A stretch of 49,559 nucleotides of DNA from IMG/VR virus record IMGVR_UViG_3300020183_000122, positions 1-49,559 of that record, one strand, 5' to 3'. Positions within the stretch are counted from its first letter, which is position 1. Every line of letters starts with the position of its first letter. Origin of the DNA: a virus. This document shows positions 37,664 to 42,516 of this stretch, piece by piece. Under the pieces are notes generated by a model. That model saw nothing but the letters and a program-made list of their open reading frames with translations, was not told the DNA's origin and did no database searches. A program made the position numbers and the translations under genes.

Positions 37664-39423
37664 TACTATTAAAAAACATTACATTAAGAAATTTTTTATC
37701 TATTGGTGCAGTTACACAGGCTGTGAACTTTGATAGCAAAGAATTAACATTAATACTGGGCGAGAACCTAGATCTAGGAGGGGACGGTGCTAGAAATGGT
37801 ACTGGCAAGACGACTCTCATCCAGGGTCTTTCATATGTATTGTTTGGTACTCCAATCAATCAAATTCGTAAAGATAACTTAATCAATCGTACTAATGCTA
37901 AAGGCATGATGGTTACATTAGAGTTTCAATGTAACGGTATTGATTATAAGATTGAACGCGGTCGTAAACCAAACATACTCAAATTTTATGTAAACAATCA
38001 AGAAGAAGAATGTATTAATGATGCTCAGGGTGAGAACAAAGAAACACAAGAACATATTGAACGTGCTATAGGTATGACTCCCGATATGTTTAAACATATT
38101 GTGGCACTAAATACATATAGCGAACCATTTTTAGCCATGAAGGCTAATGATCAGCGTAATATTATTGAACAGTTGCTTGGCATCACATTGTTGAGTGAAA
38201 AAGCAGAACTAATAAAAGAACAAATCAAAACAACCAAAGACAGTATAACTGAAGAAGAATACAAAGTAAAAGCAATAGAAGAAGCAAATAAACGTATACA
38301 AGAACAAATTGAAAACTTAAAACGACGAGCGAAACTTTGGGATGCCAAGCACGACGAAGATTTAAAGAAGTTAACAGAAGACCTTGAAGAACTGCGTAAG
38401 TTAGATATTGAAGCTGAACTTCAAGGTCATAAAGATTTAAGTTTATATAATCAAAATAAAAAAGATTTAGCCGATATTGATAAAGCAATCAATAGAGCAG
38501 AAACAGATATTGATCGTGAGGAAAAGGCACTTAAGAAAGCTGAAAAAGAATTAAAGTCATTGCAAGACCATAAGTGTCATGCTTGCGGTCAAGATATACA
38601 TGATGACAAACACAGCAAACTATTAAAAGAACGCGAAAAATTCGTAAAGACCACCGCAGCAACACTTGAAACATTGAATATTGAAATATCTCAGGTACAC
38701 AAAGCCAAAAAAGAATTAGGTACTTTAGGCAAACCACCAAAACTATATTACGATACAGAGCAAGAGGCGTTCCAACATCGAAGTATGGTTGATAGCCTCG
38801 TTAAGTCTATAGATGAAAAAACTAACGATTTAAATCCATATACTGATCAAATATCCGAAATGGAAAATAAGGCGTTACAAGTTGTTGACTTTAACAGTAT
38901 CAATTCATATAATAGACTTCTTGAACATCAAAAGTTCTTATTAGAGTTACTAACCAGTAAAGACAGTTTTGTACGTAAGAAAATTATTGATCAAAATCTC
39001 AGTTATCTCAACGCAAGGCTTACACACTACCTTGATAGGATCGGATTACCTCATCAAGTAATATTTTTAAACGATCTATCTGTTGAGATAACTGAGTATG
39101 GACGCGAACTTGATTTTGATAATTTAAGTCGTGGTGAACGCAATAGATTAATACTTGGTTTAAGTTTTGCTTTCCGTGATGTATGGGAAAGTTTATATTG
39201 CCAAATTAACACATTATTTATAGATGAACTAATTGACAGCGGTATGGATAGTATCGGTGTTGAAAACAGTATGGCAATACTAAAAGATATGTCACGTAAT
39301 AGAAACAAATCTGTATGGCTTGTAAGTCATCGTGAGGAACTTGCTGGACGTGTGCCTAGCGTGTTGCGTGTAGTCAAAGAAAATGGATTTACAACATATA
39401 ACACAACACATGATTTTGTATGA
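37660..39423 (+). CDS. gp46: Recombination endonuclease subunit gp46 (Rad50/SbcC type), 587 aa
   Basis: This is the ATPase partner of gp47. Visible elements are a Walker A-type loop with GARNGTGKTTL (about 43-53), a coiled-coil arm (about 175-300 and 325-420), a zinc hook CHAC (about 305-308), an ABC signature LSRGERNRL (about 489-497) and Walker B LFIDELIDSG (about 518-527). T4 gp46 is 560 aa, so the length fits. Its stop overlaps the ATG of the radical SAM gene (ATGA at 39420-39423). The chain gp47-gp46-radical SAM is therefore tightly coupled, which is unusual for a non-recombination gene. Confidence 0.95.
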   Translation: MILLKNITLRNFLSIGAVTQAVNFDSKELTLILGENLDLGGDGARNGTGKTTLIQGLSYVLFGTPINQIRKDNLINRTNAKGMMVTLEFQCNGIDYKIERGRKPNILKFYVNNQEEECINDAQGENKETQEHIERAIGMTPDMFKHIVALNTYSEPFLAMKANDQRNIIEQLLGITLLSEKAELIKEQIKTTKDSITEEEYKVKAIEEANKRIQEQIENLKRRAKLWDAKHDEDLKKLTEDLEELRKLDIEAELQGHKDLSLYNQNKKDLADIDKAINRAETDIDREEKALKKAEKELKSLQDHKCHACGQDIHDDKHSKLLKEREKFVKTTAATLETLNIEISQVHKAKKELGTLGKPPKLYYDTEQEAFQHRSMVDSLVKSIDEKTNDLNPYTDQISEMENKALQVVDFNSINSYNRLLEHQKFLLELLTSKDSFVRKKIIDQNLSYLNARLTHYLDRIGLPHQVIFLNDLSVEITEYGRELDFDNLSRGERNRLILGLSFAFRDVWESLYCQINTLFIDELIDSGMDSIGVENSMAILKDMSRNRNKSVWLVSHREELAGRVPSVLRVVKENGFTTYNTTHDFV

Positions 39424-40427
39424 ACCTAGCTACGTGGCATTGGCATATTGAAATTAGTAGTAAATGTACTTTAAAATGTACGAGATGCCCTAGAACAGAA
39501 GTACCTGATACATTGGTTAATACCGAATTGCATTTGGAATTTTTTAAAAGAAACTTTACTGAAGAGTTTGTAAAAAACAATGTTGAAAGAATAACTTTTT
39601 GTGGTGATGACGGAGATCCAATTTACGCACAAGATTTAATTGAAGTTATAAAGTACTTTAAAAAAATAAAACCAATTAGTATTACTATAATAACGAACGG
39701 TAGCTATAAAAGTAAAAAATGGTGGGTAGAATTGGGATCAGTACTTGATAGTAATGATCAATTACATTTTAGCATTGATGGCTACGATCAAGATACAAAT
39801 GTTTTATATAGAGTTAATAGTGATTTTAAAAGCATAATGCAAGGTATTAAAATAATAAGAAGATATAGTAGTTGTTATATGTTTTGGGACCTTATTATTT
39901 TTAAATTTAATCAAGATCATATAGACAAAATTACAAATTTAGCAAGAAGTTTAGGCTTTGATTTTTTACAAATTACCAAAAGTAGTAAGTTTGGAAGTAT
40001 AGATAAAAGATATAACAATGATATATTAGAACCTAGGCCTGAAAATATAGCACAAAGTATGTTATATGAAAAATCTACAATTTGTTTATCAAATAAAAAA
40101 ATGCCTGAGAATTTTTTAAACAAAGTAAAAAACTTATTTCACCATTTATCTGAAAATGAAACTATAACTCCATTATGTTTTACTGGGGTAAAAGGTTTAT
40201 TTATAAACAGTCAAGGAGATTTTTTTCCCTGTTGTTGGGTAGCTAATAGATATGATCAAAATAGTAATTGGTTACAGTTAGGCAAAAAGTTTAACTTGTA
40301 TAAAGAAAATTTGCAAGATGTTTTACATAATATTTTATGGCAAACTAAATTTTATAACAACCATTCAACTTGTAACCATAAGTGTAGTAAACAAAGAACA
40401 TTAATAAATTCTAGCTTTAATTTTTAA
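39420..40427 (+). CDS. Radical SAM enzyme with C-terminal Cys-rich (SPASM-like) region, 335 aa
   Basis: The N-terminus has the 4Fe-4S/SAM motif CX3CX2C at Cys16, Cys20 and Cys23 (SSKCTLKCTRCPRTE). FCGDDGDP (about 59-66) stands in place of the usual GGEP-type strand, and FSIDGYDQD follows at about 118. The C-terminal third carries further cysteines (PLCFTG about 253, FPCCWV about 270, STCNHKC about 317), as expected for auxiliary clusters of the SPASM/twitch kind. Such enzymes modify peptides, sugars or cofactors; the substrate here is unknown. The ATG overlaps the gp46 stop and has no clear ribosome-binding site, implying translational coupling. The gene is visibly richer in A+T than its neighbours (14 G/C of 60 in 39901-39960), which suggests separate acquisition. 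Confidence 0.85.
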   Translation: MNLATWHWHIEISSKCTLKCTRCPRTEVPDTLVNTELHLEFFKRNFTEEFVKNNVERITFCGDDGDPIYAQDLIEVIKYFKKIKPISITIITNGSYKSKKWWVELGSVLDSNDQLHFSIDGYDQDTNVLYRVNSDFKSIMQGIKIIRRYSSCYMFWDLIIFKFNQDHIDKITNLARSLGFDFLQITKSSKFGSIDKRYNNDILEPRPENIAQSMLYEKSTICLSNKKMPENFLNKVKNLFHHLSENETITPLCFTGVKGLFINSQGDFFPCCWVANRYDQNSNWLQLGKKFNLYKENLQDVLHNILWQTKFYNNHSTCNHKCSKQRTLINSSFNF

Positions 40428-40441
40428 AGATAACTAACAAT

Positions 40442-41017
40442 ATGCCTAATCCACAAAAACAAAAAGGATCAAGTTTTGAGCGTGAGATTGCTATTTTTTT
40501 AAGCGATTTATATAAAGAAAGCTTTATACGTGCTCCTGGCAGCGGTGCATATGTGGGCGGCAAAAATCAAGTTCGTACACAGATATTACACGAAGGCCAA
40601 ATACGTAGTTTTAAGGGTGACATTGTTCCAGGACAGAGTTTCCCAAAATTTAATGCTGAGTGTAAATCATATGCTGATTTTCCGTTCCATTTAGTTCTTG
40701 CAGGTGACTGCAAGGTATTAGATGCGTGGTTAGAGCAAATGGTGGGCGTTAGCGAACAGGGCGACATGAATATACTTTTCATGAAGTTCAATAGAAAAGG
40801 CAAATTCGTAGTAGTGCAATCAAATAAAACATGGGTAACTGATCAGTTCCTATATTATACATCAGCTAAACAGGGCGACTGGATTATTATAGAATTTGAT
40901 CATTTTTTTAAATTAAATAAAGACTTATTAAAACTATACTCAGGCACAAAAGACACCACGTCAGACACTGCACAAAATCAAATTATATCAAATCTTAAAA
41001 CAACTCATATGATTTAA
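40442..41017 (+). CDS. PD-(D/E)XK nuclease, probable Holliday-junction resolvase type, 191 aa
   Basis: The catalytic pattern of the PD-(D/E)XK fold is visible: GSSFEREIA with Glu13, RAPGSGA (about 30-36), GDIVPG with Asp60, and NAECKSY with Glu73-x-Lys75. The layout (Glu in helix one, short Ser/Gly segment, D...ExK) resembles archaeal Hjc and phage resolvase-like nucleases. The C-terminal about 60 residues are less typical. It follows gp46/gp47 by two genes on the same strand, fitting a role in processing recombination intermediates. T4 uses the unrelated gp49 for this; a general DNA nuclease is an alternative. It is the last plus-strand gene before the convergent gap. Confidence 0.72.
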   Translation: MPNPQKQKGSSFEREIAIFLSDLYKESFIRAPGSGAYVGGKNQVRTQILHEGQIRSFKGDIVPGQSFPKFNAECKSYADFPFHLVLAGDCKVLDAWLEQMVGVSEQGDMNILFMKFNRKGKFVVVQSNKTWVTDQFLYYTSAKQGDWIIIEFDHFFKLNKDLLKLYSGTKDTTSDTAQNQIISNLKTTHMI

Positions 41018-41023
41018 AATTTG

Positions 41024-41431
41024 TTTGGTCGAGGTTCCTCGACTCTCCTTGAGCAAGTCTAGTTTACTAGTAACCTGCAGATCTGGAGTATAGACACAAT
41101 TTTGTGTCGTATACCGAGAGGGCAATCGACAGGTTCGCGAACCCTCAATGAGCTTATAATTAATTTGTCTAGATGTTATAAGACATGCGTTGCTAGAGTT
41201 TAAACTCTACTACATGCCATAAACTTTATAGAGTAACCGGTAGCGTTATACAGCATAACAAGCTAGTATGACGGGCATAGACAACATGGGGACGGGCAGG
41301 CAAGTCTGACCTATGGTAGTGCTGTTATAGCACTACCATGGGTTCAAAGCGGCAAGTAATTTAAATCCATATAATAATTTAAAACATACTGAGTGAGCGA
41401 AGCGAACGAAGTAGTTGTCTGAAGGACAACT
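41024..41431. ncRNA. Candidate large structured RNA in a convergent intergenic gap
   Basis: The 414-base gap between two convergent genes holds no credible ORF but many perfect inverted repeats. They are 41028-41043 (GTCGAGG/CCTCGAC), 41088-41114 (GACACA/TGTGTC extended by GTATA/TATAC), 41118-41146 (GAGGG/CCCTC), 41153-41182 (CTTATAA/TTATAAG), 41187-41217 (inner TAGAGT/ACTCTA), 41231-41255 (TAGC+GTTAT/ATAAC+GCTA), 41308-41344 (11 perfect pairs ATGGTAGTGCT/AGCACTACCAT plus further pairs) and 41413-41431 (AGTTGTC/GACAACT). Possible long-range helices are AACCTG 41072-41077 with CAGGTT 41130-41135, and ATGCC 41214-41218 with GGCAT 41274-41278. G+C is 128/300 over 41041-41340, above the flanks. 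None of the large hairpins is followed by a U tract. No known RNA family was recognised, and the transcribed strand is unknown. Confidence 0.6.
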
Positions 41432-41662
41432 CTAAAAGAAAGGCAGTTGAGTTTTCTTAGTAGTCTCCAAATTATTTTCTATTAATTCATTAAGTATTTG
41501 TCTTTCTTTCCCAGACATATTGAGTATGTCCTGATAAGAACTACCGCCGCGCATATACCATGCCATAGTCATGGCTGATTTTCTTATTTCGTCGCAGTCT
41601 TTTTCGTAATTTTCTACAAGCTTCACTACTTCTTCAGAACGAAGAGTGAGAAGCTTTACCCG
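41432..41662 (-). CDS. Frameshift extension of the gp26-type protein (76 aa; GTG-only small ORF)
   Basis: This minus-strand frame encodes AMTMAWYMRGGSSYQDILNM followed by SGKERQILNELIENN and a KKTQLPFF end. That type is conserved downstream of gp26-like genes in T4-like phages, often called a baseplate-hub or tail-assembly chaperone. As a separate gene it has only a GTG at 41626 and no ribosome-binding site. Its frame is open back to the gp26-type stop, and a -1 slip at the heptamer 41662-41668 joins it in frame to that gene. The result is 275 + 76 = 351 residues, starting CGG GTA AAG after the slip. Like lambda gpG/gpGT, the pair lies beside the tape-measure gene, though divergently oriented here. 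Independent translation from the GTG remains possible. Confidence 0.72.
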   Translation of the reverse strand, partial: RVKLLTLRSEEVVKLVENYEKDCDEIRKSAMTMAWYMRGGSSYQDILNMSGKERQILNELIENNLETTKKTQLPFF

Positions 41663-42486
41663 AAAAAATCGGTAACGTTTAACGTGAATGGTTGCTTATA
41701 TTGGTTATTACAGTTACTGCACTTTATATCAAAAGGCTTTAGTTCACTAGCTGAACGTAAGTTTCCATTGTGATCACGTATTGTATTAAAAGTGATTTTA
41801 TCACAATTGGTTAAAAAGTCTAATATATAATCCTTTTGATCAACAACAGTATTAGGAGTTCTTATATAGACAATTGTTTTAGCAAGTATTTTAATAGTTA
41901 AATTAGTAATATCTGTTAAAGCACGTTGTGTTAGTTTAGCTTTATTTTCATCATCTTGTTCCATTTCTACTGCTGCTAATATCTTTTGTGCTTCAAACAT
42001 TCCCATGTTTGCTTCATTCATTTCTCTAAATATTAAAGGTCGAAATTTGAATGTAAGATCGCCGATTACTAATTCGGTATCGTAATCACCTGCTTTAATA
42101 TTACTTAATAATCCAATTAAATCTAGACCATATGTTGCTACATTTGAACATGCTGGGCATGTGGACTCTACTTCCATAGTGTGTGATCCTGCAGCGGCAC
42201 GTATTGCTACTAATGTAGCATCTAAATCTACGCTACTAATGGACCACGGATCTTTGATATCAGGAACACAACTTTTAATTAATTCATAAATTGCTGTACC
42301 ATTAAACAATGCGTCCGGCGTTTTTGCAGTTATTTCATCTATGGCAGTCATTGGATATATTGGAAGTTCGCCTGTATCTGGCATAGTTAATGTTTCAGGT
42401 GCATATCCTTTTCCGTTGCTGGGTAATTTTAAGTAAATTGCCGGTCTACGAAAATACTGTTTTAATGGGTTATTAATATCTGACAT
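41656..42486 (-). CDS. Baseplate hub/tail assembly protein, gp26-like, 276 aa
   Basis: This resembles the T4-type baseplate assembly proteins (gp26 and relatives). The conserved start reads NPLKQYFRRPAIYLKLPSNG, then ELPIYPMTAIDEITAKTPDA and LIKSCVPDIKDPW. Two CxxC pairs, CPAC (about 109) and CSNC (about 253), probably bind one zinc. I place the start at the ATG of MSDINNPLKQ (42486), because GAGGA lies 4 bases before it and homologues begin there from memory. An ATG nine codons upstream (42513) would read through that ribosome-binding site. The C-terminal codons GAT TTT TTC GGG TAA contain a slippery heptamer. It probably acts as a tail-assembly chaperone. Confidence 0.78.
   Translation of the reverse strand: MSDINNPLKQYFRRPAIYLKLPSNGKGYAPETLTMPDTGELPIYPMTAIDEITAKTPDALFNGTAIYELIKSCVPDIKDPWSISSVDLDATLVAIRAAAGSHTMEVESTCPACSNVATYGLDLIGLLSNIKAGDYDTELVIGDLTFKFRPLIFREMNEANMGMFEAQKILAAVEMEQDDENKAKLTQRALTDITNLTIKILAKTIVYIRTPNTVVDQKDYILDFLTNCDKITFNTIRDHNGNLRSASELKPFDIKCSNCNNQYKQPFTLNVTDFFG
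41662..41668 (-). promoter_or_regulatory. Programmed -1 frameshift site T TTT TTC
   Basis: On the minus strand the last codons of the gp26-like gene read GAT TTT TTC GGG TAA. T-TTT-TTC is an X-XXY-YYZ heptamer known to promote -1 slippage. The stop follows two codons later, and the -1 frame is open for 76 codons with conserved-looking sequence. No stimulatory structure downstream was worked out. Confidence 0.72.
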
Positions 42487-42516
42487 AAGTTCCTCAATTA
42501 GGTGTTTTTCCAAATA

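Follow-up and report, generated by a model that had tools for sequence, protein, structure and literature searches.

The 414-nt gap at positions 41018–41431 (plus strand) of the viral contig IMGVR_UViG_3300020183_000122 (the window hereafter, analysed over its full 49,559 nt) is predicted to encode a structured noncoding RNA whose fold comprises about twelve helices plus two pseudoknots. This RNA would belong to a family that large T4-like and jumbo phages carry at one conserved slot, where the neighbours are gp46/gp47, a nuclease gene and the gene for the baseplate hub. From comparison of homologous sequences we consider the existence of this family, in the sequence type found in the window (clade 1), and its plus-strand sense to be very probable. 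What is new is the RNA family, apparently unannotated until now; a new mechanism is not proven.

A folded element between convergent genes

The gap extends from the stop of an endonuclease gene (41017) to a convergent small ORF (41432). It contains no ORF of at least 60 aa, and its G+C content is 41% compared with roughly 35% in the surroundings. The minimum free energy is −124.5 kcal/mol, and none of 100 shuffled sequences folds as well on either strand (z-score −3.94 for plus, −3.75 for minus). A preliminary description had proposed an undescribed, noncoding structured RNA at 41024–41431, richer in G+C than its surroundings, with at least eight helices including one of 11 bp. These limits agree with the extent found here (about 41024 to 41431), as do the other properties; twelve helices are backed by homologues. 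The features and their support are as follows.

40442–41017 (+): PDDEXK / RusA-like endonuclease gene, upstream of the RNA (Pfam PF24608, PHROG 244)
41018–41431 (+): structured noncoding RNA element, whole (fold z-score, shared slot, covariation, G-U excess)
41027–41044 (+): 5' hairpin directly 3' of the endonuclease stop codon (pair 41032 × 41040 covaries, neighbours compensate)
41045–41088 (+): near-invariant conserved block CTCCTTGAG ... GATCTGGAG
41045–41048 with 41085–41088 (+): possible CUCC/GGAG pairing within this block
41057–41060/41071–41074 (+): inner helix of this block (covariation 41059 × 41072)
41089–41112 (+): hairpin, helix 41093–41098/41103–41108 (three significant covarying pairs)
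41118–41146 (+): helix GAGGG/CCCTC, 41118–41122/41142–41146 (two significant pairs, 100% canonical)
41148–41186 (+): hairpin, 41148–41150/41184–41186 and 41153–41158/41177–41182 (five significant pairs), whose loop engages in pseudoknot 1
41165–41284 (+): pseudoknot 1, 41165–41170 with 41279–41284 (three significant covarying pairs, 97–98% canonical)
41189–41237 (+): helix GTTGCT/AGTAAC, 41189–41194/41232–41237, enclosing a variable hairpin and a conserved ACTACA..AACTTTA(C/T)AGAG block (one significant pair, two just below threshold)
41216–41276 (+): pseudoknot 2, 41216–41218 with 41273–41276 (41216 × 41276 significant, 98% canonical)
41244–41272 (+): hairpin 41244–41254/41262–41272 (eight significant pairs, many compensatory)
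41296–41305 (+): repeat A, G at 41296 and GGCAAGT at 41299–41305 (same-base covariation, permutations)
41313–41339 (+): 11-bp hairpin ATGGTAGTGCT/AGCACTACCAT, helix 41313–41323/41329–41339 (nearly invariant in clade 1)
41349–41357 (+): repeat B, G at 41349 and GGCAAGT at 41351–41357 (same-base covariation, permutations)
41413–41431 (+): 3' terminal hairpin AGTTGTCT/GGACAACT, preceded by an A+T-rich spacer and a GAGCGAAGCGAACGAAG block (three significant covarying pairs, 100% canonical)
41432–42513 (−): convergent small conserved ORF and T4-type baseplate hub gene, jointly (Pfam PF12322, synteny)
41432–41626 (−): small convergent ORF, 64 codons
41656–42513 (−): T4-type baseplate hub gene

The 64-residue product of the small ORF has a GTG start and a WYMRGG motif, and is retained in nearly all related contigs. 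A radical SAM protein gene (39420–40427, plus strand) lies within the gp55-gp47-gp46-endonuclease operon, and by far the largest ORF of the window (6983 codons) is at 2643–23594 on the minus strand.

Covariation was assessed in a MAFFT alignment of 126 homologous sequences (<95% identity) with an R-scape-like procedure, a G-test with average product correction. In its null the substitutions on each branch of a FastTree tree are redistributed over the alignment columns, so that phylogeny is preserved. At E < 0.05 there are 32 significant column pairs, of which 29 are canonical, the two pseudoknots included. Two of the three non-canonical pairs are register shifts of one helix; the third is 41296 × 41349. 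Single E-values are approximate, given a home-made procedure and a MAFFT alignment. A separate RNAalifold run on 28 sequences finds compensatory changes on both sides in 12 of 21 predicted pairs. Within the covarying helices, read on the plus strand, G-U pairs outnumber A-C by 343 to 49, which identifies the plus strand as the RNA.

Rfam 15 has no match in the window element either at gathering threshold or at E 10, and together with the covariation and the plus-strand sense this upholds the proposal of an undescribed RNA. The same description had recognised no diagnostic motif of RNase P, tmRNA or group I/II introns, and here too Rfam and ARAGORN are negative. At gathering threshold Rfam is unmatched in clades 1, 2 and 4; at E 10, three cultured phages give only weak sRNA- or terminator-like matches below gathering, with no RNase P and no tmRNA. 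ARAGORN finds no tRNA or tmRNA in the window or in 27 related loci, and the tRNA-like domain and tag reading frame of a tmRNA are not met. No Rfam RNase P model matches (permuted forms would escape), and a group I/II intron has no Rfam match, the element sitting between intact genes. An intrinsic terminator is contradicted by the lack of a U tract after a G+C-rich hairpin anywhere in 41018–41431, as the preliminary description had noted in saying that these hairpins are not simply terminators.

The likeness to GOLLD and ROOL suggested there stands for size, pseudoknots and phage origin, but neither Rfam covariance model matches. GOLLD and the present element are both large, ornate, pseudoknotted phage RNAs of unknown function. 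Many GOLLD members exceed 800 nt, and both GOLLD and ROOL are frequently close to tRNA islands (PMC12286853), whereas the window, like the 27 related loci, has no tRNA gene. ROOL, at about 660 nt, is similar to the element in size, in its occurrence in phages and prophages and in its unknown function; its sequence is unrelated. No description of a jumbo-phage noncoding RNA like this family was found in open-licence full texts, although an earlier report elsewhere is possible, and term searches of papers on CBB and fEgEco12 and of a jumbo-phage overview gave no mention of such an RNA.

One slot and several sequence types

The slot (nuclease gene, gap, convergent small gene, T4-type baseplate hub) is found in more than 150 related viral contigs. 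A search of viral contigs with both flanking proteins yields 148 loci of the same arrangement; these comprise 93 distinct gaps (88 below 600 nt), the median identity between pairs being 67%. The DNA pattern of the main hairpin occurs in at least 120 stretches, all at this slot as far as the contigs extend, and a scan of 84,980 bacterial and archaeal species genomes gives no exact hit for this clade-1 pattern. Wherever a contig includes the flanking genes the slot is retained, with rare exceptions. The RNA stays while the neighbouring nuclease is exchanged (PDDEXK, SegE, EndoVII), and among the matches listed one locus (L222) is without a recognisable endonuclease. Eight clade-1 contigs of up to 524 kb each carry one RNA copy per record.

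Some loci depart from the usual layout. An insertion of ~166 nt splits the RNA copy at L240 (1765–2283), and in L011, L050, L068 and L120 an extra 700–800 nt separates the RNA from the small gene. No RNA was detected next to the endonuclease of Salicola phage SCTP-2. Slot gaps are present in PA5oct, Atu_ph07 and RaK2 and no profile matches them; that of PA5oct (L444, 6058–7572) is 1.5 kb long with tiny annotated ORFs. Melnitz phage, reached via SegE, was rejected: its SegE context differs and the tmRNA reported for it is a different RNA.

Hundreds of other contigs carry one of two further sequence types at this slot, clades 2 and 4 (at least 120 matches each), and another type occurs in cultured jumbo phages. 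Clade 2 was reached via the baseplate protein of Sinorhizobium phage Phosso and has the order gp47-gp46-SegE-gap-baseplate. It shares CUCCUUGA..CUGGAG with clade 1, at a marginal profile match (E 0.015). Phosso itself (L164, 4986–6001) has a 1-kb, hairpin-rich noncoding gap beside RNase HI and endonuclease genes; one stretch resembles the 3' end of the RNA family, and there is no profile match. In a marine clade-2 subset (L301–L318) the SegE GIY-YIG nuclease gene and the RNA are jointly inverted relative to baseplate and gp46, as if they were one unit. In clade 4 the G-U and A-C counts are near-equal (46 and 40), a weak strand signal, so the RNA sense was taken from synteny.

Neither sequence profiles nor the covariance model R1 give significant detection across clades. 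That the four types form one family is inferred from position and architecture. All four share the slot, A/B repeats around a hairpin, an AUGNCUYC-like word 3' of the hairpin and a terminal hairpin.

Copies in cultured jumbo phages and the repeats A and B

121Q, CBB, GAP32, BF and Munch/7t3 carry an RNA type of their own, and their slot appears as a large unannotated gap or as small hypothetical ORFs. With the gap of Salmonella phage 7t3 as query, blastn finds 31 phages with 4–6 places each among the matches listed. Paralogues were counted in ten cultured jumbo phages (4–5 per genome): CBB, GAP32, BF, XbC2, 7t3, Hallingskeid, Kaldavass and SNUABM_12 have five copies each, 121Q and XaC1 at least four. 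All copies lie on the same strand except one in SNUABM_12, with 52–85 kb between them in most genomes. The spacing has a CV of 0.08–0.17 in the four genomes tested; five random points are as even in only 0.01–0.2% of trials (fractions 0.0001–0.0021), the related genomes not being independent. Copies cluster mostly by position across related phages, the exception being XaC1, whose four cluster together.

The 48 copies from the ten phages align over ~600 nt common to all, and 24 pairs covary significantly, 23 of them canonical. A sigma70-like promoter scoring at least 10 precedes 95% of 39 copies as against 7% of shuffles; upstream of the clade-1 RNA this promoter type is not enriched. All 38 non-slot copies have a same-strand gene close downstream, mostly within 100 nt. 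About ten further sites in 7t3 (W01) carry the promoter-like stretch of ~40 nt that precedes the RNA.

The repeats A and B flank the 11-bp hairpin, and the pair between them, 41296 × 41349, covaries as identical bases (GG 75, UU 22, CC 12). The sole non-canonical significant pair of the cultured-phage set is also a same-base pair (UU 24, CC 18) and lies in the equivalent repeats. In all four clades the longest word shared by A and B within one RNA exceeds all 2000 permutations. In cultured phages the repeat sequence varies among the paralogues of one genome, which speaks against one protein or target common to them. Two explanations by pairing were rejected: permuted controls do as well as an alternative pairing of B with the upstream strand beside A (C:B), and as well as pairing between the shared word and the remainder of the RNA. 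We cannot explain the same-base covariation.

Possible functions

No promoter signal was found ahead of the window RNA, which would therefore most likely be the 3' end of the transcript of the gp55-gp47-gp46-radical SAM-endonuclease operon, from which we infer it may be cut out. Over the window as a whole there is no enrichment of the T4 late promoter TATAAATA. The mode of action that we place first, short of calling it probable and by inference only, as there are no transcription data, is that of a stable trans-acting RNA: a compact scaffold that, in the course of infection, would bind or sequester a factor of the host or the phage. This reading accords with the complex fold, with the indifference to neighbours and with the presence of one copy in clades 1 and 2; a spaced cis element would fit one copy per clade-1 record less well than an RNA acting in trans. 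Against it, five separate copies that one phage group has long retained at even distances hint at a role that depends on position.

A rival reading is a replication-origin RNA: the transcript would form an R-loop at its own locus, where cleavage by RNase H would yield the replication primer, several copies being several origins. T4 oriF and ColE1 RNA II, a structured RNA of ~550 nt transcribed at a specific locus, are the models; we see no sequence in common between RNA II and the jumbo-phage RNA, and know of no conserved fold in the T4 oriF/oriG transcripts. We think this unlikely, though it is the best placed of the alternatives. It draws on the regular, mostly one-stranded copies, on neighbours that include gp46/47 and branch-resolving nucleases, and on an A+T content of 75% after repeat B compared with 56% in the RNA body. 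A promoter-like sequence with an A+T-rich stretch behind it would resemble oriF/oriG of T4, in the same superfamily, where a middle promoter and an A+T-rich unwinding element set the precedent (PMC3016281); the promoter ahead of the RNA is confined to cultured-phage copies. The promoter class of the copies, with a TGAAACG −35 element, has also been reported for CBB and GAP32, for CBB with many cases upstream of DNA-synthesis genes, and without mention of an RNA (PMC5259590). However, clade-1 contigs of up to 524 kb hold one copy only, the GC skew of GAP32 does not change at the copies, a purine-rich tract is not above shuffles, and the spacing is not independent in related phages.

Somewhat less plausible again is a cis-acting 5' leader of a long transcription unit, acting in antitermination (like HK022 put or EAR) or in control of the next gene. 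The same-strand gene soon after every non-slot copy examined and the promoter before most of them would suit a leader, but over 90% of CBB genes share a strand in any case (of 554 ORFs, 34 are minus-strand; PMC5259590), and the slot copy faces a convergent gene in all clades.

A DNA-level element (a cruciform, recombination or packaging site) or a bidirectional terminator might account for palindromic hairpins, direct repeats, the location between convergent genes and the near-invariant main hairpin of clade 1; it is very improbable given the G-U excess over A-C on the plus strand, the covarying pseudoknots and the missing U tract. A highly derived RNase P RNA, tmRNA or other known RNA missed by profile models is hardly credible, as it rests on the short look-alikes CCACGACCGUUGCA and ACAGAGCAACCCGC in cultured-phage copies (the RNase P resemblance being limited to short motifs) against the negative Rfam (gathering; clades 1, 2 and 4) and ARAGORN (tmRNA; 27 loci) searches.

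Taken at its widest, the finding would be of one family, a core component of large T4-superfamily phages with repeats that coevolve in identity, which one lineage has amplified to five regularly spaced loci marking replication or transcription units; we offer this whole picture as a tentative possibility only. A large and strongly conserved RNA has apparently been overlooked in the annotation of many cultured and uncultured jumbo phages, in several of whose genomes small hypothetical ORFs are annotated over it. As hosts are in culture, among them E. coli K-12 for one 121Q-like phage (Sharanji is recorded on MG1655), tests of its function are possible at once, and the regular spacing of the copies makes questions of jumbo-phage genome replication and transcription testable.
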